From Boswellia sacra (taxonomy: Eukaryota; Streptophyta; Magnoliopsida; Sapindales; Burseraceae): a stretch of DNA of 64,000 nucleotides. The stretch is from the NCBI GenBank assembly GCA_013180625.2, contig SNVD02011186.1, forward strand, positions 62,001 through 126,000, in the 5' to 3' direction. Of this stretch, positions 42,338-61,099 are shown piece after piece. The position numbers and the translations under genes are program-made. The notes under the pieces were generated by a model. It did no database searches, was not told the origin of the DNA, and saw only the letters and a list, made by a program, of their open reading frames with translations. How positions within the stretch are numbered: position 1 is the first letter of the stretch; each line of letters begins with the position of its first letter.

Positions 42338-45116
42338 ATGAAAACTTTGCGTATTTTGATGTTGTATAATGGTTCATCGAAGATGCAACATAATGGAAGT
42401 TATATGTATATGGGAGGGATGTCTAAGGCATTGATAATTTCTAGGTGTATTACTTATAATGAGTTGGTTGAATGTTTAAGTTTAGAAATGGGTTGGGATT
42501 TGAGTAATAAAAAACCTTAAGTTTGGCTGTTCAATTCTCCTCTAAGGGTCCTCCTCCATTGCCGACTCTTATTGAGACTGATGACGATGTATGTTTTTTC
42601 ATATAACATAGTCTGGAGGACCCGTTATCATACATAGCGCTCATCATCACAGTTGAAGATATGAACCAGCAAAGAAGAAGGTCAAGATCTAAACCTTCGA
42701 TGAAAAAGAGTTCTTCTAATCTTTCTTTGTTTCACTCAGCTACTGGAACTAACCAATTAACTGAGTCCACTCCTACCCTTGTGCAATCAACTTGTAATGA
42801 AGAAGTTTCAACAGTTTGCTATGCATGGAGAGGAGGAGCGATCGGGTGGTGCTAGAGAAGTTGGAATAAACCAGTCATTGCCATTTACCTTAATTAGACA
42901 CCTTGATAGCTTTAGAGAATTTGAGAGCTTAGCCAATGTCGAGAGTGATAGTGTTCATGGGGTTGGCGATGACGGGAATAACAATAGTGACGATGAGGAC
43001 GATGACCATAATGATGATCGTGATAATAATGATGATGTGGACTATGTTTTTGAATCAAGCGATCAGTGGGATGATGATTTAGATGGCAATGATCACGGTG
43101 GAAGTGAAAATGGGGCCACAAAGTTTTCGAATGATTTAAACCAAGAGGTGCCTAGAACCTTTCCTACCTCTATTCAATCAACTCCTCCTTGAACATCAAT
43201 AGCAAAAGAATCGGATCCAGTCGGGGGGCTTGTGGCACCTGATGGCGATATTGGACCTTCGAGCAATGATAATCAGGCAAACACATTTAGATGGATGCCT
43301 CTAATTGTGCATTCCATATCAATAGGTCATGATGATCCAACGTCGTTTGTAATTGACAGAATTGAGGTTGTAGTCGGACAAATTTTTAATAATAAAATCT
43401 AGCTTCGCGAGAAGTTATCAAATTTGGCATTATGACGCAACTTTCAGTTTAAGGTAACAAAATCCAACCCAACAAGGTTCAAAGCTGTATGCCATGCTGA
43501 AAATTGTAAGTGACAGATACGGGCAACCAAGATAGCAGATTTCAATTTCTTCTAGGTGTGAAAATTTAACAACTAGCACATATGTTCGGGAGCTGGGCTC
43601 CACCCTAATCACAAACAAGCAAAATTCGTTGTTATTGGGAAACATATAATGTCGAAATTCATGCAGGCATTGCGGATCTATCAACCTAGGGACATTATGC
43701 ATGATGCTAAAAAAGCATTAGCTGTTACCATCATATACCTTAAGGTACGAAGGGCAAGAGAAGTAGTGTTGGAGAAACTGCATGGATCTCATGAGGACTC
43801 ATTTTCACTTTTGCCTCAGTATATGTACATGGTTGAGAAAGCAAATCCCGGGACGAGAACTGCTTTGAAAACTGATGATAACAATCACTTCAAATACCTT
43901 TTTATGAGTTTGGGGGCTTCTATTGCCAGATTTACGAATTCAATTAGGTCGGTGGTTGCAGTTGATAAGTCTCATTTAAAGAAAAAATATAGAGGTACCA
44001 TGTTTTTGGCATCAAGTATGAATGAAAATATGCTAATATTTCCATTGGCATTTGGAGTTGGTCATTCAAAAAACGATGAATCCTAGAATTGGTTCTTGAG
44101 TCAACTGCGTGATTAGGTTGTCCACAATATTTGTGATTAGTGTTCATCTTAGACCGCTATTCAAGCATTGCAAATGCTATTTCTTGTGTTTTCCCTATGG
44201 CACTTCATGGGTTGTGCACCCATCACTTGAAGGGAAACTTGAAGGCAAGGTTCAAAGATAAGGCTTTATTAGACATGTTCACCAAAGCTACAAGGACCCA
44301 TCTTCGCACTGATTTTAACCACTATATGCACATAATTGAATCATACATACCCTCAGCTACAATGTTTCTTCGGGAGATAGGTGTGGAGAAATAGGCACAT
44401 TCACAATTCACCGGTTGACGTTATAATATAGTGACAACCAATATAGTCAAGTCAATGAACAGTTGCTTGAGACAGGCTCATTTCCTGCCCATTACAATTT
44501 TAACCGATTATTATCGAGCAAATCTTTAGAAATGGTTCTATGCACGAAGAAAAATATTTGTTTTTTCGCAATTACATCTTACTCCATGGGCTGACAAGTT
44601 GATGGAGGATCGTTTGAAAAAAGGTGATCAGATTAGACTTTACGGCCTATCTTTAACTATGTACGAGGTGTATGGTAAATAATGGGTCAACATTATCGAC
44701 ATGCATGCCTGGACCTGCATATGTAGAGTGTTTGATCTTGACCAATTGCCTTGTACATATGCATTAACTGTTTGCAAGCAAATGAGCTTACTCACGTGCC
44801 ACAATTGCTATGCTAATTGGTACACAAACAAATGCAACCTTCATGCATATGTATTACCTGTGGTTCCAGTTGGGGTAAGTGACGATTGGGTGGTTCCAGA
44901 TGAGGTAAAAAGTAGAGTCGTCCTGCCATCGGAAATGTGAAGGCCGGTAGAAAGACTAAGAAGAAAGAGGATCCTATCCTAGGAGAGTCCAGCACGTCAT
45001 GAAGTTGCGGTCATTGTGGGAGCTCAGGTCATAATCGGCAAACATGTCACAATCCTATACCTCTTGAATGGGTTGCTGGTGCCGACATAATAATTTATGA
45101 CTTCCTATTTCTACAT
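42338..45116 (+). pseudogene. Mutator-like (MuDR) transposase pseudogene
   Basis: Successive plus-strand frames, broken by many stops, give the layout of a MuDR transposase. The N-terminal domain is MLYNGSSKMQHNGSYMYMGG. An acidic Asp/Asn-rich linker lies at 42955-43120. The MULE catalytic part has VVAVDKSHLKKKYRGTMFLA and FPLAFGVGHSKNDES (about 43945-44085), then LDRYSSIANAISCVFPMALH and CTHHLKGNLKARF (44146-44260), then the MNSCLRQAHFLPI stretch. A SWIM-like DLDQLPCTYALTVC (about 44732-44775) and a CCHC knuckle, CGHCGSSGHNRQTC (about 45004-45045), follow. The first catalytic Asp (VDKSHLK) and the second (LDRYSS) are present. Stops at about 44083 (TAG), 44113, 44392 and later make it inactive. 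Confidence 0.85.
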
Positions 45117-46149
45117 AGAGTATAATGTATTTTTGTAATGTATTTACCAAATCATGTATTAAGTTCAAATTTATAACTATTGTATTTATAATGTACTAGT
45201 TTACCAAACTTGTGTATTTATAATACACACGTGTTATTGTGTGTGTGTGCATGTGTAGGTAATTTGAGCAAAATTAATGTTAATTTTTGTGTATACAATG
45301 TCTACATCTATATGTTATTTGGTATGTGCATGTGTAGGTGGTTTGCACAAAATTAAATAACAATATATACAAAATTACAAAACCATACGTTTAGAAATTT
45401 TTACCCATATGTACATAAAACAATAAATCATATGTACAAAATCAATAATTAATATGTATAAAAATATGCACACAATATGTATGCTATATGCACGAATTAA
45501 TAAATTGTAAGCATAAAATTTGTACTCCAGCCAAATGATATCGGCTCATGTATCCGGACGATCGGGAGATGTCACGGGAGTATCGACGGTATTTGATCTC
45601 GGGGCGGCCATAGCATCTGATCCTAGTGTGGCTACAGCCTTTAAGCTGTCGATAAGAGGAGTAGTACTGCATGCGAGGGGTCGGATCTGAATTCAACGAG
45701 TCCAACAGTAGTGCATTACCATCCTTTGTTGAAGCGTGCTCTCCGTGAACGACTGTACGTTCGCCACTGGAACACCTCCTGCGAGATACTCTATGAACAG
45801 TAGGCAGTACACTCCACAGGCCCCTCTTTCGGCCTTCTACTGAGGAGCTTCTGTGGTATCCTCCACTGGCCTAACATTGAAAGGGACAGTGGGGAGACAG
45901 TGGGGAAGTCCATGTCGTCGAATGCACTCAATGAAATCAAATGGGGTAGTATGTGCGTCAGGAAACTACAACACTCTTTCATTGTGTCCAGCGACGTGTT
46001 CGTGATGAAAAGTCATAAATCTAAAATAGTGATTTAGGTCCAAACGAGCTGCCATCTAGTGCTCGCCGTCTATGTTTATAAGAATATATAACTGTAAAAC
46101 AAAAAACGAAGCCATGTTAATGTACAACTTGGTCAAATGACATGATCAT
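45117..46149. other. interior of the Mutator-like relic
   Basis: 45120-45480 is AT-rich with tgtatttataat repeats. 45480-46140 has coding-like base composition on the minus strand (for example FDDMDFPTVSPLSLSMLGQW), but I cannot place it in a family; it would be the middle of the minus-strand gene whose start is at 46150-46720. Confidence 0.35.
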
Positions 46150-46720
46150 TTTTTACTAGATACTCATATAAATGAATTACCCATTCAAGATCCTCCCACG
46201 ATTGGCCTACGAGCGGACTATCTCCGTAAACGTAAGGATAACCTCCCAAGTTATACTTTTTACCCTCATGCTCCTCTTTTTCATCCTTCCTTGTCATATA
46301 CTTAGCTAGCCTCCTAGCTTAAGCTTTCTTCATGTCCCGAACGATCATCTTATAAGACTCAGTACCCTATGGATATTCACTGAATCTGTCCAATGTGTCC
46401 ACGAAGTTCAACCACTTAACAGAAATTAATCGACGTATATCCTATATAAGGAAAAGGCGCTCAAGCACATAATACAACGTCAGCTTTACCATGTCCTCAT
46501 CTAGGATTCGAGAAACATTTAATTTCTCAAACTTCTTATAAACACATTCAACAAAATTTGCTTCGACCCAAAATACTTGCCTCGCAATCTGCACTTGCCA
46601 CGATTGTCGGGAGTGCTTGGCATCTTCGTTTCAAACTTCATTCCCATAACGATACCAAACTCGTACACTGAAAAGCGTATAACCCTACCTATATTGAACA
46701 AGCATATGTCACCGTACGAC
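46150..46720 (-). pseudogene. DUF1985 (Ulp1-associated transposon protein) relic
   Basis: The minus strand encodes FNIGRVIRFSVYEFGIVMGM and CRLRGKYFGSKQILLNVF. After a frameshift come RILDEDMVKLTLYYVLERLF, a stop, LNFVDTLDRFSEYP with a TAG where the WG of the usual YPWG motif belongs, and ESYKMIVRDMKKA. This is the order of the DUF1985 domain (RFSxxEFxxxxGL, KYFG, DxDxVKLxLxYxLE, LDxxxxYPWG) that precedes a Ulp1-type C48 peptidase in proteins carried by some plant MULEs. No Ulp1 His-Asp-Cys site is recognisable in the remaining sequence. It converges with the MuDR transposase relic, as in Ulp1-carrying MULEs. Confidence 0.6.
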
Positions 46721-47144
46721 TAATGTACGATGATAACACTTTTTTATGACAATTTTTATAAATAATATGCAAAAGTAGACAACCCATACCTCGTATTAGA
46801 AACCACATCTCATCATCCAACCCATAACCATGAGTCTCCGGCTCTCTTAACAGCACATGGTGCACCAATTATGATGGAAAGATCAGGCGTGCGGATGTCC
46901 AAATGTGCCCAAAACATGTGCTCATAAACATCTTTTTTTTTTACGATCATTTAACTTGTCTCGAACCCACTGTACACACTCCAGACTGACCAAATTGGTT
47001 ATCACTGCATGGTATTGGTCGTCATATGGAGTATTCATGTTGAATGTATGCCCATGACTATTTGCCATTATCACCTGCAAAAAAAAAAAATTTCAATCAA
47101 TTTGAACCAAACATGTGTGTTTTTGGGTAGGGGAATCAAAGCCT

Positions 47145-47880: not shown

Positions 47881-48703
47881 TTTAAAAAAATTTAAGAAGT
47901 GCATAATCTAGATTATGTACTCGATTTATCAACACAGAACCTTATGTATGTGATAAGTAAAAATAAGCCATTGTCTGGAATAAAATTTGATAGGCAGTTG
48001 TTCGACAACCTATAGCTAATATTACAAAAGGCTTAATGTCACATCTTTTTTAGCCAGGATACAATTGATGGGAAAAAAAGAATAAGAAAAAAGGAGAAAA
48101 ATATATTATTGAGGTACCCACAAGACAATAATATTTCTAAACATGACTTAAATATTAAAACTGTCTCAAGCCTTTGATAACCATGACTTCATATAAAAAA
48201 ACTTCTCGAGCTGCAAAGCAAGACCTGTGTAATATTTCCAAATTAACTAAAGATTTCCACATTACCAGATGCAATGTATTATGGAGCTACCTACCTATCC
48301 ATATTTGTCCATAACCTTGGTTTTGACATGAAACTCTTCACTAGAAGGGCCCAATTTTGCCAAGCCAAAATCAGATGTTGGATTCCTTGTAGTACTATAA
48401 AAGAAAATAACAAAAGAAGAAAAAAAATGAAATACTATTGGAAGATTTATACAAGTTAAGGTATCTAATAAACACATATCTTGAAAGCAACCCATCAATT
48501 ACAATGCCATTTGGAAACAAGAAAACAAGAGAAGCCATTTCCGTTTGCATAATTACAATGCTAATTTGAGTAGCCACCAGATTTGAGATTTTATTCCATT
48601 AATATTTATTCTCAATTTAGCACACGAATAGAGCCTATCCTTAAATTGACATAGATAGAAATGTTAGGATCAAACAAAAACCAACCCTATCAGGTAGTAT
48701 ATT

Positions 48704-50116
48704 TGATTACGCCCAAAATATACCGCGGTTATTGTAGTATACGTTGAGGTGTCGAATCCACAAGGAGGCCTTTGATAAAAGAGGTTAGTAAAACAAAAAA
48801 TATAAAAGATAATAAAGATATAAAATTTAACTTTGAAGTGATTGGTTCTAAAGAAAATACAATGTTTAATAATTGGAAACAATCGATGGTAATTAAGAAG
48901 TAAGGCATCGAGAATCACTTATATGTTTTGTAAATCTAATCCCACTTTGATTTAATAATTATAACTCAATTGAAAGTTTCACATCCCAAACAATCAATCG
49001 GAAAATATGTATAGTATAGCATAAATGATAAACACATGTATTTGATATGCATAAACTCTTTACAAGCAATATTTACCAACAACATTCATCCTTACAAGTT
49101 ATCCAAGAGCGACAATATATCACATGACAATATTGTAGTAAAGGATTAACTCATAAAACGAAACTACCAGTAACAATTATAATTCAACATGAATCACATA
49201 AAGAAAGCATGACTGAATTTATATGAAATTGAGAATTATAATTTCTGGATTAAAAAGAAATCACAAGATGAGAAAGAGTTTAACACATAAACAAACATAC
49301 AATCTTTATAGCCTTTGAGGTAGAATGAAAGTGGAGAAATAGATAAACTACACATACAAGTTCATCTCTAGCCTTACCAAGAGTTCTAGCCTAACTTACA
49401 ATTCATTCTTATCATTTCTAAAGAGAAAATACAAGAGAGAATTGCAATATACAATGATAAAATGTGAACTCAAATGATTTTTTTCTCTCCCCTTTCAATT
49501 CCTCAAGTTGTCCTTAAATAGGTGATGAAATGGAACTATTACACCAAACCTCCACCAATTTTTCCACAATGTCAGCCACCAACTTGCAGCTGCTTTTTGA
49601 CCACCAAATGGACTGAATTGGGCTTTGTGGAAAACATGAAAGTTGTAGCATTTTGTCTCAGCTTTCCAGGGCCACCAGATTCATGCAATTTGGACAAGTA
49701 TTCTCTGAGATATGGCCCAAATACTAGACATGGGTCGGGCTGAGAAACAACTACATTTTGGTTTTGTTGTGTCTCAATTTCGGCCCATCAAATGTTGGAT
49801 TTGGGCTTTTGATTGTTCTTCAACTTTGTGTAAAATTGAGACATGTTGCTCCAGGTTCAATAATCTCTCCATTTTGATCTATAGATTGAGAGTTGTGTCC
49901 ATTTTATTAAACCTGAAAAAAATGATTTCTATTAATCACAATTTAAGGACAATACTTTATTTCAAGATAAAGACTAAAGAAAATGCAAAAGAAATGAAAC
50001 AAATGTAAAAGAGGCATAAGCAAAATAATTATGCTAAAATATCATAAAAGCTTTATAATACTGTCCAATTAGCATTAATTATTTATGCTTAAGAGTGTAC
50101 TTTCATGCGTTTATCA
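48704..50116 (-). repeat. 3' LTR
   Basis: 1413 bp, TGATAAACGC...GGCGTAATCA on the minus strand; nearly identical partner of 59557-60969. The U3 TATA (CCTATTTAAGG) is at about 49511-49521. Confidence 0.95.
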
Positions 50117-50130
50117 CAATCCCCAGCCAG
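50117..50130 (-). other. polypurine tract region
   Basis: CTGGCTGGGGATTG directly precedes the 3' LTR on the minus strand, the expected place of the plus-strand primer. It is G-rich but short. Confidence 0.5.
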
Positions 50131-51408
50131 CTTATTGCTAGTCCCTAGCAATTCAAGCGTAAATAAAGCATGAAGAACTACTTCAGCATTTCAAACAAAA
50201 AGGCAGTTCAAGATCACAATTGCTATAAAGGTTATTTCAATCATAACTTCCAAAATTGAGCACATGTGAATCAAGCCAAACCTTCTTACCACGAACCGCA
50301 ACACATATAGCCTTGAAAATTACTCTATGTAAAAGCCTCAACTCCTTATCTTCACAGGTGAACGACTGTTTAAAAAGGCTATGATTTCTCTCATGGAGTT
50401 GGAAAATAGAATAAACACTCAAGGAAAGGTCACATTTAAGGACAGATAGACAACTAACATTGATCCAAAGATAGGAAAATCCAATGTTTAGAATCAAACC
50501 ATTCTTGCAACATGCTACCTTTAGGACTTCATTTATCTTGAGTGAATCAATACAGCTTGATGAGAAAAGACTGCTTCATAAAACTTCTATATTCTAAAAT
50601 TGAATGAAGACATTATTGAATCAAACTAACTTCTTCTCTTTTTTTTTCTCTTTTTTTTCTTTTTTTTATGTTTTTTTTCACAAGAATTGAAATTTCATCT
50701 TGAATCGTCCCTTAGCTCAATTCGAGTAATGACATTCTAAACAAGGATTAATCAATTCAAAGGATCAATGAAAGTTCGTAAGCTGTTTTCTCAACCTCTC
50801 CACTCACTCACAAAAGATGTGTGAGATTAAAAAAATGTGAACTTAAACATGAGAATTCTCTTGGCTATATACATTGAATCATCCATCTTACCACAAGGCT
50901 TAACATTGTGCTCAAAATAATTTCAGAAATCATTATTTGATAACCTAAATAGAAAAGATGACTCAAACCAATAATTTTGAAATCATACCTAGATAGAAAA
51001 ACAAACCCATTTAGACAAGAATTACCGAGAACACATGCAATAAACAGCTGTGCATGAAATACAAATCAAAAATAAAAAACAAATCAACTAGTTAGAATGC
51101 GTTTCAAGAGGTCAAAACTATACTCCCTACTCTGCCATTCTGGATCTAATAGATCTAGAATGCGTCTCAAGAGATAATGAACTCTTTACACAGCCATTCT
51201 CAGACCAATAGATTTTTTTTTTTTTTGAAATGCAATGCAAAACATATGCCTCCTATCTACCCCCAACCAGAGCGAAACATTGTCCTCAATGTTTAAATGT
51301 AGAAGGAGAAAGTATAAGAGATATCACCTGAAGCTTCAGTTATTCAAGAGAAACAAACCTGAAAAACACTTAATAAAATATTGTGAATGAAGCCAAAAGT
51401 AAGAAAAG
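50131..51408. other. non-coding region between LOG and the 3' LTR
   Basis: No supported gene. It contains a pyrimidine run (tctcttttttttct type) at about 50634-50682 and, at 51094-51216, two copies of a 63-bp unit (agaatgcgtttcaagag / agaatgcgtctcaagag ... ccattct). Confidence 0.5.
51094..51216. repeat. 63-bp tandem duplication in the retrotransposon 3' region
   Basis: Units begin at 51094 and 51157 with agaatgcgt(t/c)tcaagag and contain (t/c)agccattct-like and aatagat segments. Confidence 0.6.
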
Positions 51409-52053
51409 TTACAAACGAAGTGTCAGATCCAATTTTCTCTTATTGCTCATTCCCACTGACCAATTAATTTGAGATGCTTCAGGGTCAGGTTCATAAACAA
51501 AAGCTTGCAATTTATCAATTAGTTCATCAGCAGTTGAGGCAGAGACAAGGATCCGTTGTATTGATTATGAGATAAACCTTTGTTCCACAGCTTGATTAAC
51601 AAAACACAATAAACAATCAAAGAAATTATTGACATTCAACAAACCTATGGGTTTCTGGTGGATATTGAGTTGGGCCCAAGAGACAACTTGAAAGATTTCT
51701 TCTATTGTTCCAAAACCTCCTGGTAAAGTAATAAAGGCATCTGCATTTACAATCATGCGAGCTATGCGTTCATGCATGGATGAGACCTGTAATTCCTCTC
51801 CAACTGTTTTCCCAGCAACGTTAACTAAAGCTTTAGGAATAATGCCTAAAACTTGACTTCCTCTTGAGTATGCAGTTATTGACACACACCCCATTAACCC
51901 ACGGTTACCTCCCCCATAAATTAAATGAAGTTTTCTCTCAGCTAGAACCTTACCAAGATTATGAGCTGCTTCTAAAAAAGCTATATCATTACCAGGCTGA
52001 GATCCACAAAATACACAAATATTTCGGAATCGACGAGCTGAGGTTCCCTCCAT
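51409..52053 (-). CDS. LOG: retrotransposon-borne LOG (cytokinin riboside 5'-monophosphate phosphoribohydrolase), interrupted by one stop
   Basis: An intron-less frame starts MEGTSARRFRNICVFCGS at 52053 and is open for 162 codons to a TAA at 51565-51567. Family similarity continues in the same frame (ILVSASTADELIDKLQAF) to a second TAA at 51409-51411, so the full-length version is about 213 aa, normal for plant LOG. Family marks: ICVFCGS (12-18), IYGGGNRGLMG (45-55), GIIPKAL (70-76), MHER (93-96), the nucleotide/ribose loop LPGGFGTIEE (110-119), then WAQLNIHQKPIGLLNV (126-141). LOG enzymes release active free-base cytokinin from its riboside monophosphate in the cytosol. The usual Lys after MHER is Ile here. 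Cellular LOG genes have several introns; this one has none, pointing to capture through RNA. It sits after integrase, on the element's sense strand, 237 bp below the Cys-containing ORF. The single stop removes only the last helix region, so activity of this copy is doubtful; other copies may be intact. Confidence 0.88.
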
Positions 52054-52100: not shown

Positions 52101-52111
52101 TGTATTTATAG
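52101..52111 (-). promoter_or_regulatory. TATA box upstream of the retrotransposon LOG
   Basis: The minus strand reads GCATTCTATAAATACATCTC, a near-ideal plant TATA box about 50-55 nt upstream of the LOG ATG. Initiation would fall near 52075, leaving a 5' UTR of about 20-25 nt. It suggests an internal promoter for the cargo gene, separate from the LTR. Confidence 0.5.
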
Positions 52112-52290: not shown

Positions 52291-52839
52291 CTATGAGTTG
52301 GGGATATGCTTCCCATCCAATTTTCTTATAAATTGGCAAACAGGGTCGTTTTGAGTCAGATTCCCGAGACTATAGCGTTCTTGCTCTTCCCGAAATTGTG
52401 TCCATAATCTTAAAATCTCTCGATGCACAAGTCCACAAGGATGCGTCTCAAGAGTCAACAAGATATTATCTAGAGACTCCTTACTCAGTCCATCCTTAAT
52501 GAACTGAATCTTATCTTCTCGATTGACAGACACATATCCTAAAGAGCGATATCGCTTGTTACAGGTCCATCGTGCACATTTGTGACAAACTTGTAATTTA
52601 TTTGCTCTTCGCTTTTTTGCGTAAGAGCTTTTACCCAAACCAGGCATGAAAGAAACAAAGGCTTTTAAACATTCACTAGATAATCGAACTTTGGCTTCAA
52701 TTAACCATCGTATATCAACAGGTAAACCCATGAGCATTAGCAATTTTAACCTTGCAAACCGTGCTTTGTAAATTTTGAGCAATGCATTTGGAGGAAGAAA
52801 AGGAAAATGTCTACGAAGGTTTGAAAGAATCGTATCCAT
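52291..52839 (-). CDS. 182-aa basic, Cys-containing ORF of the retrotransposon (nucleic-acid-binding-like)
   Basis: Complete frame from ATG (AAAATGGA context) to TAG/TAA-terminated HIPNS; not gag, pol or a known env. It is strongly basic. Residues 69-79 read GKSSYAKKRRA, followed by CHKCARWTC (Cys 85, 88 and 93, His 86) and then NREDKIQFIKDGLSKE. An arginine/lysine patch directly before a short Cys cluster and a following FIxxG segment is the layout of the small nucleic-acid-binding, silencing-suppressor-like proteins of carlaviruses and relatives. I see the resemblance in order and spacing only, and the Cys cluster is shorter than usual. No signal peptide or clear membrane span, which argues against an envelope protein. 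It lies between integrase and LOG. Function unknown; a zinc-binding RNA/DNA-binding protein is the best guess. Confidence 0.7.
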   Translation of the reverse strand: MDTILSNLRRHFPFLPPNALLKIYKARFARLKLLMLMGLPVDIRWLIEAKVRLSSECLKAFVSFMPGLGKSSYAKKRRANKLQVCHKCARWTCNKRYRSLGYVSVNREDKIQFIKDGLSKESLDNILLTLETHPCGLVHREILRLWTQFREEQERYSLGNLTQNDPVCQFIRKLDGKHIPNS

Positions 52840-53223: not shown

Positions 53224-54522
53224 TTAATTAGGATAGACAGGAGGCTCAAGAGAGATCTCCTCGAGACACATAAACTGACTTTCCCTTTCCACATAATTTT
53301 TCAACCGTTGCCCATTAACTTTGAAAATTCGTCCATCAGTTGGGTCCTCAATCTCCACCGCTCCATTGGAAAAAACATGCTTTACGATAAATGGTCCAGT
53401 CCATCGAGATCTCAACTTTCCAGGGTGTAAATGCAATCGAGAATCATAAAGATAAACTCGTTGATTTAGCTCAAAGTTTTTCCTCAAGATTTGTTTGTCG
53501 TGAGCCGCTTTCATCTTAGCCTTGTAAATCTTGGAGTTGTCATAGGCATCATTCCGCAATTCTTCTATTTCAGACAATTGTAACTTTCTTTGAAGACCTG
53601 CAACACTCAAATCAAAGTTAAGGGCTTTGACAGCCCAATAAGCTTTATGTTCTAGCTCAACAGGTAAATGACAAGCTTTCCCATAGACAAGGCGATAAGG
53701 AGACATCCCTAGAATAGTTTTATAAGCAGTGCGGTAAGCCCATAATGCATCAGAAAGGTGTAAAGACCAGTCTTTGCGATTCGGATTAACAGTCTTTTCT
53801 AGAATCTGCTTGACCTCCCTATTTGCGAGTTCAGCTTGCCCATTTGTCTGTGGATGGTATGCGGTGGAAATCTTATGAAGAATACCATACCTGCGCATCA
53901 AAGCTTCAAAAGAACGGTTACAAAAATGTGTCCCTTGGTCACTGATGATGACACGTGGCGTACCATACCTAGACAACACGTTTTCTTTTAAGAATTTTAC
54001 CACGGTTGTGTTATCATTAGTACGACAAGCCATAGCCTCCACCCATTTGGACACATAATCAACAGCTAGAAGAATATAAAGATAACCAAAAGATGGAGGA
54101 AAAGGTCCCATAAAGTCAATACCCCAACAGTCAAATATCTCAATAACAAGAATAGGGCTAAGAGGCATCATATGACGGCGAGATAAAGCCCCCAACTTTT
54201 GACATCTTTCACATGAACGACAAAAATTGTTAGTATCTTTAAACAAAGTGGGCTAATAGAGTCCACACTGTAAAATTTTTGCAGCAGTCTTTTTTATTGA
54301 GAAATGACCACCACAAGCAGTGCCATGGCAAAAGTTTAAGACACTAACAATTTCACTATCAGGAATGCAACGTCGCATAATTTGGTCAGCGCAATATTTG
54401 AAAAGATAAGGATCATCCCAATAAAAATTACGCACCTCAACCAAGAACTTACGCTTATCTTGTACACTCCAGTCAGATGGAACTTCTCCGCAAACCAAGT
54501 AATTTACAATATGGCATACCAA
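53224..54522 (-). pseudogene. retrotransposon integrase (end of pol), one nonsense codon
   Basis: Continues pol after a frameshift at about 54525. The N-terminal zinc-binding part has CHGTACGGHFSIKKTA, and a TAG at 54253-54255 replaces the Trp normally found after CGLY. The frame then runs open to 53224 with [11 protein letters not shown], the DDE core ([41 protein letters not shown]) and the C-terminal GPF-type module ([29 protein letters not shown]). No chromodomain follows, in keeping with Athila/Tat-type integrases. It would insert the element's cDNA into the host genome; this copy needs stop read-through. Confidence 0.9.
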
Positions 54523-57500
54523 GGTACTTGGCTTATAGTGAAAAGATGTTCATCAGGGAAATCATCTTGAATGGGTTGGACATTAGTGGAATCATGGAAC
54601 TCAAGACGGGACAAATGATCTGCTACAACATTTTTGACGCCCTTCTTGTCCTTAATGGTTAGATCAAATTCCTGCAAAAGAAGAATCCATCTAATTAGAC
54701 GGGCCTTAGCATCCTTTTTAGAAAAAAGGTACTTCAGAGCTGCATGGTCAGTAAACACAGTAATAGGTGAACCAATTAAATAAGAACGAAATTTGTCCAA
54801 GGCAAAAACAACAGCTAATAGTTCCTTTTCAGTAGTAGAATAATTCATTTGAGCATCATTTAAGGTTCTACTAGCATAGTAAACAACAAAGGGTTTGCCC
54901 TCCCTTCTTTGACCAAGGACTGCTCCTACAGCATAGTTACTGGCATCACACATAATCTCAAATGGAAGGCTCCAATCAGGTGACTGCATAATAGGGGCAG
55001 TGGTGAGTTTGGCAATTAATGTCTGAAATGCGTCCTCACAAGCTTGAGTCCACACAAATTCAGCATCTTTCAATAAGAGGTTACACAATGGTCTAGATAT
55101 AGAAGAAAAATTTTGTATAAACCTCCTATAAAAACCAGCATGCCCTAGAAAAGATCGGACATCTTTTATCGTTTTAGGTGTAGGTAATTTAGAGATCAAC
55201 TCGATCTTAGCCTTGTCAACCTCCATTCCTCTTTCTGAAATAATGTGTCCCAAAACAATCCCAGAAGACACCATGAAATGACATTTTTCCCAATTAAGCA
55301 CAAGTCCTTTTTCTTCACACCTACTCAAAACAGATTTTAAGTTAAGTAGACATGAATCAAAAGAGTTACCAAAAACAGTCAAATCATCCATAAAAACCTC
55401 CATGCATTTTTCAACCATGTCTGAGAAAATACTAAGCATGCAACGTTGAAAAGTAGCTGGTGCATTACATAATCCAAATGGCATCCTACGAAAAGCATAA
55501 GTACCAAAAGGGCATGTGAAGGTAGTCTTATCCTGATCCTCTAGAGCTATCTCTATCTGGTAATATCTTGAGTACCCATCGAGAAAGCAATAAAAGGGAT
55601 GACCAGCTACACGTTCCAAAATTTGGTCAATAAAAGGCAATGGAAAGTAGTCTTTTCGGGTGGCTGTATTTAATTTCCTATAATCAATGCACATCCGCCA
55701 TCCGGTTACTACTCTAGTTGGAACAGACACTCTTTTATCATTTTGAACCACAGTTACTCCAGATTTCTTAGGCACTACCTGTGTTGGACTTACCCATTGA
55801 CTATCAGATATTGGATAGATTATACCTGCATCTAATAGTTTTAAGACTTCTTTCTTTACCACTTCTTTCATTGTTGGATTAAGTCTTCTTTGGGGGTCTC
55901 TACGAGGTTGGGTACCTTCCTCTAGATGGATTCTATGGGAGCATATTAATGGAGAAATACCTTTAATATCAGCTATAGTCCATCCTAGTGCAGACTTATG
56001 TTCTTTTAACAAGTTTATCAATTTTTCATCTTGTTCAACACTAAGTTCTGAAGAAATAATAACAGGAAAGGTATCACCTGCTCCCAAGAAAACGTGCTTC
56101 AAACCTTTGGGCAATGGAGAAAGTTCAACTTTTGGAGCCTCTAAGTTAGAGGGTTTTGGCTTCTCTCTTCCACGAGGCAATTCTTCAAAGCGTGGTTGCC
56201 AAAATCGAGTCCTTTTATCCTGTGAGTCAAAAACACCAAACACATTAGTTGTATCATCAGGATAAAATAAATCTTCAAATTCAGAATCAAGAAGGTAGTC
56301 TAAAGAGTCAAAATCCTGTTTTCTATAAGCCTCCTCTGAGATAAGTGTGTCTATCATATATGAATGGTAGCAATCGTCCTCCTCTCGTGGTTGCTTTCCA
56401 ATATGAAAAATATTCACCTCAAGAGTCATATTACCAAATGACAATTTCATGAGACCGTTCCTGCAATTAATAAAAGCATTAGCAGTGGCAAGAAAAGGTC
56501 TCCCTAAAATAAGAGGAATTTTGGACTCCATATTAACCACAGACTGAGTATCCAAAACAAGAAAATCAACAGGGTAATAAAATTTATCAATCTGTAATAA
56601 AACATCTTCCACTATTCCCCGTGGTTTCTTGACTGATCGGTCGGCCAATTGTAGAACTACGGATGTGGGTTTGATCTCTCCAAGTCCTAATTGTAAGTAA
56701 ACCGAATAGGGCATGAGATTGACACTTGCTCCCAAGTCTAACAATGCTTGACTGATTTCATGTGTCCCAATCTGGCAGGAAATTGTAGGACACCCTGGAT
56801 CTTTGTACTTGGGTGGGGTTTTCTGTTCAATGACTGCACTTACCTGTTCCGTCAAGAATGCAGTCTTCTTGACATGGTGCTTTCTTTTGATGGTGCATAG
56901 ATCCTTGATAACTTTGGCGTAAGCCGGAACCTGTTTGATTACATGCAACAAGGGAAGATTAATCTTAACTTGTTTTAAGTGTTCTAGAATCTCACCTTGA
57001 ACTTTCGAGTTTTTCCCATTAGATCTGAGAGCTTGGGGAAAAGGCACTGGAATCGAAAATTTCTTTTCAAGTTCTTTCTCAAAAATGTCCTCCTTTTGTG
57101 GGAGAACATCTTTGTTTTCCATGGTAGTGTTGATTGGCAATGTAGGCTCATTTAAGATCTTACCACTTCGAGTAGTGATGGCATTTACCTCTTTGAGATT
57201 TTGTGTGTCAGAAGTAGAGGCTTGTGCCATGTGTTGCCCTTTTGGATTAGATTGAGTTTGAGATGGAAACTTACCTCGCTCTTGTATGGTCAAAGCACTA
57301 GTTAGCTTAGTGATTTGACTTTTGATCTCCTTGTTCTCTTCCACCACTTGTGTAAGAACTGTTTCAAATTTTTGGTTCGTCTTATTTTGGGCCTCCATAA
57401 ATGCTTGTAAGGTGTCCTCTAAGGAATTCCTAACTTGTGGTGCATTGTATTGAGGTGCTTGATAAGACTTGGGTGGTTGTTGTTCCTGTTTCCATTGGTT

Positions 57501-58634
57501 GTTGTTTTGGGGGTTAGATTTCCAACTAAAGTTTGGGTGGTTTCTCCAGCTAGGGTTATAGGTTTCAGAATAGGGTGAATAAGGCTTTTTGTACATCCCT
57601 AAGGCGTTACATTGTTCCTCGTACACCCCTCTTATCTCACTGTAAGTTGGACAATCCTGAGCTAAGTGTTCCACCCCTCCACAAATAAAACATGGATCTT
57701 GTGATTCAACTTTAGCAACTGTATGGGTGACCTTCCTATCTTTGGTTTTCAAGACTTCCAATTCCCTAGTTAAGACTTCTAATTGGGCTTTAAGGTTGTC
57801 CTCTTCCCTAAGATGGTAAATTCCACTAGATCGTGACCTATTTGTGCTATCTGTAGCACTAGGTCCAGTCCATGTGTGGGCTTTTTCAGCTAAGTCTTTG
57901 AGGAATTCTAAGGCTTCCTCAGGGTCTTTTTGAAGAAACTCCCCGTTGCACATCATCTCAACAAATTGGCGCTCCCTAATTGTTAGTCCCTCATAGAAGT
58001 AACTAACCAAGCGCCAATTTTCATACCCATGATGAGGACACATGTTTAACAACTCTTTAAATCTCTCCCAAGTTTGGTACAAGGTTTCACTATCTTTTTG
58101 GGAGAAAGAGGAAATTTGTCTTTTCAGGCCGTTAGTCTTATGTTGTGGAAAATATTTGTTAAAAAACACTTGGGTCATTTCTGTCCAAGTTCCTATGGAT
58201 CTCGGCCTTAAAGAGTATAGCCAACTCTTTGTCCTGTCTTTTAGAGAAAAAGGAAAAAATTTTAACCTGACAGAATCTATGGCATTGGCCTGACTATGAA
58301 AGGTGCCCACTACTTCTTCAAATTCTCTAACATGCACATACGGGTTTTCACTATCTAAACCATGAAAAGTTGGTAAAAGATGTATCATCCCAGGGTGAAA
58401 GTCCAATTTTGGTGTATTAGGTGGAAATATGATACATGATGGTGTGGCTGTGCGGGTAGGATGCAAGTAATCTTTTAGAGTTTTAACGGGGTTGTCCTCA
58501 TGTTGGCTCATTGTATCAGAATTAGAAGATGAAGATGAACCAAGAATTGATTTTTCTTCGGTTGCAAAATCTTGTTGTGGTTCTAGTTCTGATTTTTTCA
58601 TAAATCTCCCTCGTTTGTCTCTAGATTGCTTCAT
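54504..58634 (-). CDS. retrotransposon gag-protease-RT-RNase H polyprotein
   Basis: 1376-codon open frame from ATG at 58634. Gag (retrotransposon gag domain) covers about residues 95-250 (KSWLYSLRPRSIGTWTEMTQ, YFPQHKTN), followed by a CCHC knuckle CFICGGVEHLAQDC near 314-327. The protease near 630 has LLDLGASVNLMP, the DLGAS form typical of Athila-like elements. Reverse transcriptase follows, with MCIDYRKLN, FPLPFIDQILERVAGHPFYC and the catalytic FMDD near 1080. RNase H covers about 1200-1345 (MCDASNYAVGAVLGQ, YSTTEKELLAVVFALDKF, FTDHAALKYLF, ADHLSRLE). The frame ends after PWYAIL, where a single-base loss shifts it away from integrase. It makes the capsid and enzymes of the intracellular replication cycle. 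gag to RNase H is intact, so transcripts of this copy could still make particles. Confidence 0.95.
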   Translation of the reverse strand: MKQSRDKRGRFMKKSELEPQQDFATEEKSILGSSSSSNSDTMSQHEDNPVKTLKDYLHPTRTATPSCIIFPPNTPKLDFHPGMIHLLPTFHGLDSENPYVHVREFEEVVGTFHSQANAIDSVRLKFFPFSLKDRTKSWLYSLRPRSIGTWTEMTQVFFNKYFPQHKTNGLKRQISSFSQKDSETLYQTWERFKELLNMCPHHGYENWRLVSYFYEGLTIRERQFVEMMCNGEFLQKDPEEALEFLKDLAEKAHTWTGPSATDSTNRSRSSGIYHLREEDNLKAQLEVLTRELEVLKTKDRKVTHTVAKVESQDPCFICGGVEHLAQDCPTYSEIRGVYEEQCNALGMYKKPYSPYSETYNPSWRNHPNFSWKSNPQNNNQWKQEQQPPKSYQAPQYNAPQVRNSLEDTLQAFMEAQNKTNQKFETVLTQVVEENKEIKSQITKLTSALTIQERGKFPSQTQSNPKGQHMAQASTSDTQNLKEVNAITTRSGKILNEPTLPINTTMENKDVLPQKEDIFEKELEKKFSIPVPFPQALRSNGKNSKVQGEILEHLKQVKINLPLLHVIKQVPAYAKVIKDLCTIKRKHHVKKTAFLTEQVSAVIEQKTPPKYKDPGCPTISCQIGTHEISQALLDLGASVNLMPYSVYLQLGLGEIKPTSVVLQLADRSVKKPRGIVEDVLLQIDKFYYPVDFLVLDTQSVVNMESKIPLILGRPFLATANAFINCRNGLMKLSFGNMTLEVNIFHIGKQPREEDDCYHSYMIDTLISEEAYRKQDFDSLDYLLDSEFEDLFYPDDTTNVFGVFDSQDKRTRFWQPRFEELPRGREKPKPSNLEAPKVELSPLPKGLKHVFLGAGDTFPVIISSELSVEQDEKLINLLKEHKSALGWTIADIKGISPLICSHRIHLEEGTQPRRDPQRRLNPTMKEVVKKEVLKLLDAGIIYPISDSQWVSPTQVVPKKSGVTVVQNDKRVSVPTRVVTGWRMCIDYRKLNTATRKDYFPLPFIDQILERVAGHPFYCFLDGYSRYYQIEIALEDQDKTTFTCPFGTYAFRRMPFGLCNAPATFQRCMLSIFSDMVEKCMEVFMDDLTVFGNSFDSCLLNLKSVLSRCEEKGLVLNWEKCHFMVSSGIVLGHIISERGMEVDKAKIELISKLPTPKTIKDVRSFLGHAGFYRRFIQNFSSISRPLCNLLLKDAEFVWTQACEDAFQTLIAKLTTAPIMQSPDWSLPFEIMCDASNYAVGAVLGQRREGKPFVVYYASRTLNDAQMNYSTTEKELLAVVFALDKFRSYLIGSPITVFTDHAALKYLFSKKDAKARLIRWILLLQEFDLTIKDKKGVKNVVADHLSRLEFHDSTNVQPIQDDFPDEHLFTISQVPWYAIL

Positions 58635-58784
58635 ACATCACTCACAATTTGTCTCTCTTTTTGTTTTTTTTGTTTTTTTTGTTTTTGTTTTTTTTTTTTA
58701 CACAAGAAAGTTCTTAAATAAAGTCAAAAAGCAATAAGATAACAAAAGTTAGAGAGAATAATAACAACAATAATAATAAAACAA

Positions 58785-59400
58785 ACAAGGTGGCAAAGCC
58801 AACCTTTGACAAGTATATATAGAAAAAAAAAAATTAAAACAAATAACAAGTAAAGGCGGCAAAGCCGACCTTTAACAAGTAAAATAATAATAACAATAAT
58901 AATAATAAAACAAACAAGGTGGCAAAGCCGACCTTTAACAAGTAAAAGAAATAAGGCGGTAAAGCCGACCTTTAACAAGTAAAAGAAATAAGGTGGCAAA
59001 GCCGACCTTTAACAAGTAAAAGAAATAAGGCGGCAAAGCTGACCTTTAACAAGTAATAACAATAATAATAATAATAATAAAACAAACAAGGTGGCAAAGC
59101 CGACCTTTAACAAGTAAAAGAAATAAGGTGGCAAAGCCGACCTTTAACAAGTAAAAGAAATAAGGCGGCAAAGCCGACCTTTAACAAGTAATAACAATAA
59201 TAATAATAATAAAACAAATAAGGTGGCAAAGCTAACCTTTAACAAGTAAAAGAAACAAGGCAGCAAAGCCGACCTTTGAAAAGTAAAAGAGCAAGGCGGC
59301 AAAGCCGACCTTTGAAAGGTAAAAGAGCAAGGCGGCAAAGCCGACCTTTGAAAAGTAAAAAGAGCAAGGCGGCAAAGCCGACCTTTGAAAAGTAAAAGGA
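58785..59400 (-). repeat. leader tandem array, 14 copies with a CGGC-AAA-GCCG hairpin
   Basis: Between the primer site and gag, units of about 36-63 bp with the core aaggcggcaaagccgacctt and a taacaagtaaaagaaa tail occur 14 times (for example at 58854, 58917, 59126, 59293, 59366). Some copies are stretched by an (aat)n tract. Each core can fold into a four-base-pair stem, cggc/gccg, with an AAA loop. On the sense strand the units also give short repetitive upstream frames. Confidence 0.85.
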
Positions 59401-59534
59401 ATAAGGTTAGTCAAAGTTAGAAAAATTAGGCAAATTAGTCAAAGTTAGGAAAATTAGGCAAAATATTCCAAGTTAGGCCAAAAAAAAAAGAAAAGGAAAT
59501 AAAAAATACAAACCGTCTTTCGTCCATTTTACCT

Positions 59535-59551
59535 CCCCTGCAACGGCGCCA
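59535..59551 (-). other. primer-binding site (tRNA-Asp type)
   Basis: TGGCGCCGTTGCAGGGG on the minus strand, five bases after the 5' LTR. It matches the complement of the plant tRNA-Asp 3' end except for one position, the primer used by Athila and many gypsy elements. Confidence 0.8.
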
Positions 59552-59556
59552 ATTTT

Positions 59557-60969
59557 TGATTACGCCCAAAATATACCGCGGTTATTGTAGTATACGTTGA
59601 GGTGTCGAATCCACAAGGAGGCCTTTGATAAAAGAGGTTAGTAAAACAAAAAATATAAAAGATAATAAAGATATAAAATTTAACTTTGAAGTGATTGGTT
59701 CTAAAGAAAATACAATGTTTAATAATTGGAAACAATCGATGGTAATTAAGAAGTAAGGCATCGAGAATCACTTATATGTTTTGTAAATCTAATCTCCACT
59801 TTGATTTAATAATTATAACTCAATTGAAAGTTTCACATCCCAAACAATCAATCGGAAAATATGTATAGTATAGCATAAATGATAAACACATGTATTTGAT
59901 ATGCATAAACTCTTTACAAGCAATATTTACCAACAACATTCATCCTTACAAGTTATCCAAGAGCGACAATATATCACATGACAATATTGTAGTAAAGGAT
60001 TAACTCATAAAACGAAACTACCAGTAACAATTATAATTCAATATGAATCACATAAAGAAAGCATGACTGAATTTATATGAAATTGAGAATTATAATTTCT
60101 GGATTAAAAAGAAATCACAAGATGAGAAAGAGTTTAACACATAAACAAACATACAATCTTTATAGCCTTTGAGGTAGAATGAAAGTGGAGAAATAGATAA
60201 ACTACACATACAAGTTCATCTCTAGCCTTACCAAGAGTTCTAGCCTAACTTACAATTCATTCTTATCATTTCTAAAGAGAAAATACAAGAGAGAATTGCA
60301 ATATACAATGATAAAATGTGAACTCAAATGATTTTTTTCTCTCCCCTTCAATTCCTCAAGTTGTCCTTAAATAGGTGATGAAATGGAACTATTACACCAA
60401 ACCTCCACCAATTTTTCCACAATGTCGGCCACCAACTTGCAGCTGCTTTTTGACCACCAAATGGACCGAATTGGGCTTTGTGGAAAACATGAAAGTTGTA
60501 TCATTTTGTCTCAGCTTTCCAGGGCCACCAGATTCATACAATTTGGACAAGTATTCTCTGAGATATGGCCCAAATACTGGACATGGGTCGGGCTGAGAAA
60601 CAACTACATTTTGGTTTTGTTGTGTCTCAATTTCGGCCCATCAAATGTTGGATTTGGGCTTTTGATTGTTCTTCAACTTTGTGTAAAATTGAGACATGTT
60701 GCTCCAGGTTCAATAATCTCTCCATTTTGATCTATAGATTGAGAGTTGTGTCCATTTTATTAAACCTGAAAAAAATGATTTCTATTAATCACAATTTAAG
60801 GACAATACTTTATTTCAAGATAAAGACTAAAGAAAATGCAAAAGAAATGAAACAAATATAAAAGAGGCATAAGCAAAATAATTATGCTAAAATATCATAA
60901 AAGCTTTATAATACTGTTCAATTAGCATTAATTATTTATGCTTAAGAGTGTACTTTCATGCGTTTATCA
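59557..60969 (-). repeat. 5' LTR
   Basis: 1413 bp with TG...CA ends. A TATA box (CCTATTTAAGGAC) at about 60366-60374 predicts transcription start near 60335. Flanked at its outer side by the target duplication atatt. Confidence 0.95.
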
Positions 60970-61099
60970 ATATTGGATGCCTTAAAATCTCTGTAAATGA
61001 CTTACTCCTCTAAAGTATGTGGAAAAACCAGGCCTTGAGCTACTCTAATGGCCAGTTTAGGCCGTATATCCCAAGATAGTAGTTAAATGGCAGGATTTC

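Follow-up and report, generated by a model that had tools for sequence, protein, structure and literature searches.

A LONELY GUY gene and an NABP-like neighbour carried by Athila-like retrotransposons of Boswellia sacra

Gypsy consensus sequences from Citrus sinensis and C. clementina, and from Populus trichocarpa once a filter was disabled, have been described as containing the YgdH domain, which otherwise belongs to LONELY GUY (LOG) proteins, with reference to Steinbauerova 2011 (PMC9289625, in the portion of the source considered here). LOG as Gypsy cargo is thus already known. Two Athila-like elements that resemble LOGL4 were reportedly named in Steinbauerova 2011. Here, we analyze a LOG frame carried by an Athila-like Ty3/gypsy element in a stretch of 64,000 nucleotides from Boswellia sacra (contig SNVD02011186.1, positions 62,001 to 126,000 of the forward strand), the whole of which is called the window. 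A first-pass annotation of this DNA had recognized the gene and knew of no described plant long terminal repeat (LTR) element with LOG cargo, a statement contradicted by the published Citrus and Populus elements. On balance, we consider it probable that LOG is a long-held, selected accessory gene of Athila-like elements, which was kept together with a gene resembling viral nucleic-acid-binding proteins (NABP) and forms a host-manipulation cassette with it.

The LOG frame occupies positions 51409-52053 on the minus strand and comprises 214 codons plus stop; these coordinates had been given correctly. As had also been recognized, it is intronless, follows integrase ahead of the 3' LTR in the same orientation as gag-pol, and is part of an element that has retained its LTRs and target duplication. 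The LTRs measure 1,413 bp each, and the duplication at both ends is AATAT. Its description as a LOG frame stands with respect to identity, but the frame is not open: TAA at 51565-51567, codon 163, interrupts it after residue 162. The 167-aa open reading frame (ORF) ending at this stop matches PF03641 (Pfam, E 1.5e-32) and TIGR00730 (NCBIfam, E 7e-45), and its closest solved structure is that of AtLOG3 (2a33, E 3.6e-51). The PGGxGTxxE motif, the catalytic Arg and the catalytic Glu, which define a type I LOG, are all present in the window. The predicted fold of a database relative, P0002, likewise has AtLOG3 as its top match (TM score 0.93 by target). NF058542, an equivalog model for cytokinin riboside 5'-monophosphate phosphoribohydrolase designed for bacterial and archaeal annotation, assigned 107.8 bits to the window LOG, 124.4 to P0001 and 131.8 to P0087, all below its cut-off of 300. 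Given these E-values and the abundance of LOG in the genome, the match cannot be due to chance. Between integrase and LOG lies a further ORF of 182 aa (52291-52839, minus strand), which had been left out of the first-pass annotation and which we refer to as NABP-like.

The genome searched comprises 638.6 Mb on 7,431 contigs. Queries with the window LOG and with the Populus database protein P0050 each matched at least 150 places, 94 and 129 of 150, respectively, being free of internal stops. The two sets share five places, which amounts to at least 295 distinct LOG places; the NABP-like ORF is found at at least 150 places. For the element groups A and B, 58 loci (L001-L058) were read and five duplicates removed, and in all 53 distinct copies NABP adjoins LOG. 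Thirty of the A/B loci (L009-L038, including the window copy) were chosen by NABP alone, and every one of them contains both LOG and integrase; integrase is also present in 8/8 loci chosen by the window LOG. The first-pass annotation had made its proposal depend on further copies in the same order, and such copies exist: the succession integrase-NABP-LOG recurs in 38/38 loci that were picked from the family of the window element and extend as far as integrase. A retrotransposon that happened to land in a host LOG gene or a processed pseudogene would account for the co-location and for nothing else. Insertion into a host gene is refuted by the constant order across copies, identical in 53/53 A/B copies and 30/30 loci picked by NABP, and we regard this explanation as vanishingly improbable. 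The frames are intact in 33/53 (LOG) and 43/53 (NABP) A/B copies. Group C, consisting of 30 loci chosen from at least 150 by similarity to P0050, has intact LOG frames in 25/30 and intact NABP frames in 10/30.

Selection was assessed by net between-group distances, for LOG from intact frames alone (24 A, 9 B, 25 C). The ratio of nonsynonymous to synonymous substitution rates (dN/dS) was estimated from at most 20 copies per group, with a codon bootstrap from the first five. LOG net dN/dS is 0.35 for A/C (codon bootstrap 0.23-0.56) and 0.27 for B/C (0.18-0.42). NABP reveals 0.14, 0.20 and 0.19 for A/B, A/C and B/C, respectively, and in raw A-B comparisons of copies, intact or not, LOG reaches 0.43 and NABP 0.20. 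Neutral simulations of the same estimator (four settings with 200 runs each, matched on the A/C difference count, not on dS) gave medians of 0.67-0.90 and not a single value below 0.37, compared to an observed raw A/C ratio of 0.335. Constraint on LOG between families is thus supported. The first-pass annotation would have settled for a one-off passenger if the LOG frames evolved neutrally; with between-family ratios of 0.27-0.35, below the neutral simulations, and with at least 295 LOG places in the genome, this reading was rejected.

LOG relatives from Xanthoceras, Reevesia, Diplodiscus, Populus and Parasponia are found among the best 120 of 3,852 database matches, and further ones come from Acer and Paulownia. 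A LOG tree, as the first-pass annotation had proposed, was built from 69 rows, namely 66 representatives (<90% identity, from 165 length-filtered proteins), the window LOG, AtLOG3 and AtLOG8, using a short search with SH-aLRT (Shimodaira-Hasegawa-like approximate likelihood ratio test) support and no bootstrap. The 57 element-type rows form a single clade (SH-aLRT 100, branch 0.74) beside the LOG7-like proteins of ordinary plants and separate from these cellular genes. We infer that the LOGs of the other species are element-borne as well, from their high copy number, from the gene neighbourhood in Xanthoceras, where NABP and LOG bear consecutive gene numbers (P0132, P0248), and from a predicted Rhamnella protein, P0204, that covers both the NABP and the LOG domain. 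In the database, the element-type LOGs P0050, P0103 and P0119 (Populus LOGL10) are named cytokinin phosphoribohydrolases. LOG gene-family counts may be inflated by such element-type LOGs annotated as host genes, and caution is advised since some plant genes named cytokinin riboside 5'-monophosphate phosphoribohydrolase, e.g., Populus LOGL10, look element-derived.

The substrate pocket sets most element LOGs apart. In the part of the structural account considered here, Arg99/Glu122 are the catalytic pair, Met96, His97, Lys100, Glu125 and Trp129 are the proposed prenyl site, and Lys100 and Glu125 are both named as prenyl-site residues common to AtLOG3, OsLOG and CpLOG (PMC4979012). We divided 190 LOG relatives by residue 100. 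In 137 of them this residue is I, L or M, and Glu125 is replaced as well in 136 of these 137 (position 125 being Gln in 96, His in 36 and Glu in 1). Catalytic and neighbouring positions are mostly preserved in the same 137 proteins, with Arg99 in 129, Glu121 in 132, Glu122 in 132 and Trp129 in 134. Among the 53 proteins with Lys100, 50 retain Glu125. The window has the prenyl-site set M-H-I-Q-W, with both K100 and E125 replaced relative to AtLOG3 and OsLOG. On the tree, Lys100 is gone in 50 rows of a 51-row clade (SH-aLRT 95), the exception being P0110 with Lys/Gln, and the residue pair 100/125 undergoes 15 changes when every state is counted, mostly within I/L/M and Q/H. LOGs of the Xanthoceras/Acer type, which lie outside this main clade, have Lys100 and Glu125 and no C-terminal tail, and P0017 combines the canonical pair with a tail. 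The captured ancestor was therefore probably canonical.

With the pocket changed in this manner, cytokinin release by the element LOG is in doubt. An element LOG acting as a canonical activator, as the first-pass annotation had suggested, would hydrolyze the riboside 5'-monophosphates of isopentenyladenine and trans-zeatin (iPRMP, tZRMP) like its cellular counterpart, and more cytokinin, cell division and spread of the element would follow. The LOG fold, the mostly retained Arg99, Glu121, Glu122 and Trp129, and the intact Lys100/Glu125 pair of the Xanthoceras/Acer-type proteins speak for it; the exchanges of Lys100 for I/L/M and of Glu125 for Q/H at the prenyl site (PMC4979012, in the part considered) throughout the main clade and in the window make it rather doubtful. 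Alternatively, the enzyme might have shifted to another, perhaps modified, AMP-like nucleotide, e.g., one related to silencing or immunity, cytokinin not being its main product. The loss of Lys100 in 50/51 clade rows, nearly always together with Glu125 and mostly with catalysis retained, is what such a shift would leave behind. The pocket roles, though, were derived from superposition, and MmLOG is classed as a LOG despite a divergent pocket (PMC4979012, same portion), which leads us to judge the shift unlikely.

Most of these proteins also share a C-terminal tail. Of the 137 proteins with I, L or M at residue 100, 105 are full-length, and 95 of these have an LxLxL end, preceded by a KKRK-like patch in 90; among the 43 full-length Lys100 proteins such an end is confined to P0017 and P0110. 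In 37 representatives that had been selected for this motif, positions -10 and -8 are almost invariably Lys/Arg, and the linker next to them varies. In the window, the codons for the tail LDLTLRL, with KRK ahead, are located at 51412-51432 (minus strand), downstream of this copy's stop, and conform to LxLxL. According to the parts of the sources considered, LxLxL or DLNxxP is the EAR consensus (PMC6283911, PMC9956375), and the effectors HaRxL21 and Jsi1 bind TOPLESS, as stated in abstracts. The tail may thus act as a nuclear, EAR-like module that binds TOPLESS. Carried to the extreme, the LOG fold would be a mere dimerizing scaffold for this tail and the protein a non-catalytic decoy or recruiter of TOPLESS, for which the tail in 95/105 full-length members and the altered pocket could be cited. 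As a scaffold would need neither the catalytic Arg (129/137) nor the catalytic Glu (132/137), we consider such an adaptor highly improbable.

The neighbouring ORF of 182 aa, which features a basic patch and a Cys cluster, exceeds the Pfam gathering thresholds of two viral families, PF01623 (Carla_C4, 28.1 vs. 20.9 bits) and PF05515 (Viral_NABP, 24.1 vs. 23 bits). Relatives occur in Populus, Xanthoceras, Rhamnella, Acer and Orobanche, among the best 120 of 405 database matches. A profile scan of 82 members, i.e., the window ORF and 81 of the 120 listed relatives, gave matches with E <=0.1 to PF05515 in 78/82 and to PF01623 in 78/82, the best with 1.1e-8, and the next family, SHQ1, matched 9 of the 82. 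An artefact of the basic patch was weighed against this result, in which the two viral families reach 78/82 each and SHQ1 just 9. Five named relatives were rescanned, of which 3/5 exceed the cut-off of PF01623 and 2/5 that of PF05515. Homology to carlavirus proteins hence appears likely from the profiles, though it is not proven. In single queries of IMG/VR with the window NABP-like ORF and LOG, whose reach is close relatives, no relatives were found. No publication describing Athila elements with a carlavirus-type NABP was found among the titles and abstract openings listed; Steinbauerova 2011 may mention one. The p12 protein of chrysanthemum virus B is described, in the part of the source considered, as a transcriptional activator in the nucleus and a silencing suppressor in the cytoplasm (PMC7588395).

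The motif TATAAATA lies 45-50 nt upstream of the LOG ATG in 53/53 A/B copies. In the window it is located at 52103-52110 (minus strand), 49 nt upstream of the ATG, and occurs once on the same strand of the element. C copies have ATAAATA at the equivalent place in 30/30 and the complete TATAAATA in 3/30. This conserved TATA motif suggests a putative internal promoter for LOG.

LOG is also present in elements without pol. An upstream integrase match was found in 16/30 C loci and none in 14/30; 13 of these 14 represent a separate upstream cluster, and the flank of L068 is too short to judge. Extension of two loci from this cluster (L089 with L085, L090 with L073) revealed LTR start, gag, NABP, LOG and a second LTR start, the gag sharing 37-39% identity with that of the window. 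Protease, reverse transcriptase (RT), RNase H and integrase gave no match inside these two elements; two short RT-like matches in L089 are located on the opposite strand before the LTR and thus outside the element. In L061, L069, L076 and L087, likewise of the 13, just the last 27 NABP residues are left, and LOG is intact in L069 and L076. Integrase-bearing and integrase-less copies are intermixed on the LOG tree (9 changes, rows of unknown state dropped). The idea that LOG is selected independently in elements without pol was consequently dropped, and the mixed states indicate that the 3' module was probably swapped between elements by template switching.

Several observations weigh against LOG as a selected accessory gene with an NABP-like partner. 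Its frame is broken in 20/53 A/B copies. The LOG net dN/dS for A/B, 0.37 (0.21-0.86), is indistinguishable from neutral in simulations, and within groups, across copies intact or not, the ratio is 0.56 for A-A pairs and 1.05 for B-B pairs, although such high values are expected from changes after insertion. The ratios within C, 0.16 for integrase-bearing and 0.18 for integrase-less copies, are pulled down because resemblance of the LOG protein was the criterion for picking the C copies. A passive passenger, transduced once and copied along unused, would fit the 20 broken copies, with the window copy among them, as well as the A-A and B-B ratios; it was already disfavoured by the constraint between families and also disagrees with a tail conserved beside a variable linker and with a single clade across several plant families, so that we hold it to be quite improbable. 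With Lys100 and Glu125 replaced in the main clade, another substrate is possible. The mixture of integrase states on the LOG tree means that recombination may explain the presence of LOG in pol-less elements. Concerning the NABP-like ORF, the profile matches cover residues 54-91 and 38-120, part of its 182 aa, and the relatives P0134 and P0236 fall below the Pfam cut-offs. Its predicted structure is of low confidence (predicted local distance difference test 72.7, predicted TM score 0.38), and the first of 33 weak matches of a fold search in BFVD, the silencing suppressor p12 of chrysanthemum virus B, has an E-value of 0.78. Another carlavirus protein, the nucleic acid binding protein from red clover vein mosaic virus, ranks seventh. 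The poor structure model and the relatives under the cut-offs are the reasons why homology is not proven.

The accessory-gene reading would imply the following course of events. A spliced copy of a LOG7-like cellular gene would have been captured by an element a single time, and selection would then have retained it jointly with the adjacent NABP-like gene. Both proteins would be produced during transcription of the element, perhaps in dividing cells. As a nucleoside-5'-monophosphate phosphoribohydrolase, LOG could release active cytokinin locally or process a neighbouring substrate, and its tail might direct it to the nucleus and to co-repressors of the TOPLESS type. The NABP-like protein may weaken RNA silencing and/or shift host transcription in the manner of carlavirus NABPs, and both together could bring about a cell state that favours copying and transmission of the element. 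In its furthest form, the proposal is a two-gene cassette, composed of a relative of silencing suppressors and transcription factors and of a pocket-changed, EAR-tailed LOG, in Athila-like elements of many plants, which would be old, selected, exchanged between families and present in pol-less carriers, too. We put this forward as a tentative possibility. A cassette with these properties would benefit the element in the way of viral accessory genes. If this is true, some plant retrotransposons encode tools against the hormone, silencing and transcription systems of their host, as viruses and pathogens do, and the purpose of the extra ORFs in plant LTR elements, a long-standing question, becomes directly testable.

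The window contains one such LTR element of 12.3 kb on its minus strand. The 5' LTR (59557-60969, 1,413 bp, TGATAAACGC...GTAATCA) and the 3' LTR (48704-50116, 1,413 bp) differ by seven transitions, one transversion and two gap columns, i.e., by a Kimura two-parameter distance (K2P) of 0.0057, which corresponds to an insertion age of ~0.2-1.1 My at assumed substitution rates. The target-site duplication AATAT is located at 60970-60974 on the 5' side and at 48699-48703 on the 3' side. The primer binding site TGGCGCCGTTGCAGGGG (59535-59551, minus strand) is putatively of the tRNA-Asp type with one mismatch, and a stretch with a weak polypurine tract, recognized by eye, abuts the 3' LTR (50117-50136, minus strand). 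Domain profiles assign gag, zinc knuckle, a protease-like domain, RT and RNase H to a single ORF of 1,376 aa (54504-58634, minus strand) and integrase (rve) to 53224-54246 (minus strand); the protease match to PF13650 (E 7.4e-5, 23.8 bits) is under the cut-off of 24.3. The pol of this copy is broken, as a frame change and a stop split integrase from the gag-RT frame. The two LTRs, the target-site duplication, gag, protease, RT, RNase H and integrase as the last domain are those of a Ty3/gypsy element. A scan of the two pol ORFs, which lie 257 nt apart, revealed neither a second, archaeal-type RNase H nor a chromodomain. As the former marks the Tat lineage, Athila fits better than Tat (PMC6317226, in the part considered), and the label Athila-like fits by domain content rather than by placement on an RT/RNase H/integrase tree. 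The Athila ORF-1 domain pfam03078 gave no match in the profile scan of the window pol ORFs; it is present in 16% of Athila elements and is not obligatory (PMC6317226, same part).

Between its 5' LTR and gag, in untranslated sequence, the element contains a repeat that advances in steps of 37 bp (58754-59441), with 12 matches that overlap. Outside the element, remnants resembling a MULE transposon are located at 42779-44086 (plus strand) and 45378-46950 (minus strand), with a weak, sub-cut-off match to PF10551 (E 0.015) and, by eye alone, an Ulp1-like protease stretch. A protein-kinase-like exon fragment (DFGLAKLGPS), likewise recognized by eye, lies close outside the 3' LTR at 48298-48390 (minus strand).

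Compared to known systems, the element is closest to the Citrus and Populus Gypsy LOG elements (Alvarado-Marchena 2022, PMC9289625), which likewise carry an extra ORF with a LOG domain; in the portion compared, that account neither analyses copies, pocket or tail nor tests for selection, and it describes neither an NABP neighbour nor elements without pol. The Gypsy elements of Phalaenopsis with an AlkB m6A demethylase (PMC9289625, same portion) also represent a captured host-type enzyme encoded by an extra ORF in a non-chromovirus family; they concern another enzyme and another lineage, and in their case enzyme activity was demonstrated. With cellular plant LOGs (AtLOG3 2a33, LOG7 group) the element LOG has the fold and the catalytic residues in common; unlike these, it is intronless, has residues 100/125 replaced and bears the KKRK-like patch and LxLxL tail. 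The ORF beside it resembles carlavirus NABPs, including p12 of chrysanthemum virus B, in exceeding the cut-offs of PF01623 and PF05515; unlike these, it is longer (182 aa) and borne by a retroelement. Four features seem to be new: the carlavirus-NABP-related ORF beside LOG, the replacement of the prenyl-pocket Lys and Glu with the catalytic Arg/Glu retained in most element LOGs, the basic patch and LxLxL (EAR-like) end of most of them, and the pol-less elements that retain gag and LOG.
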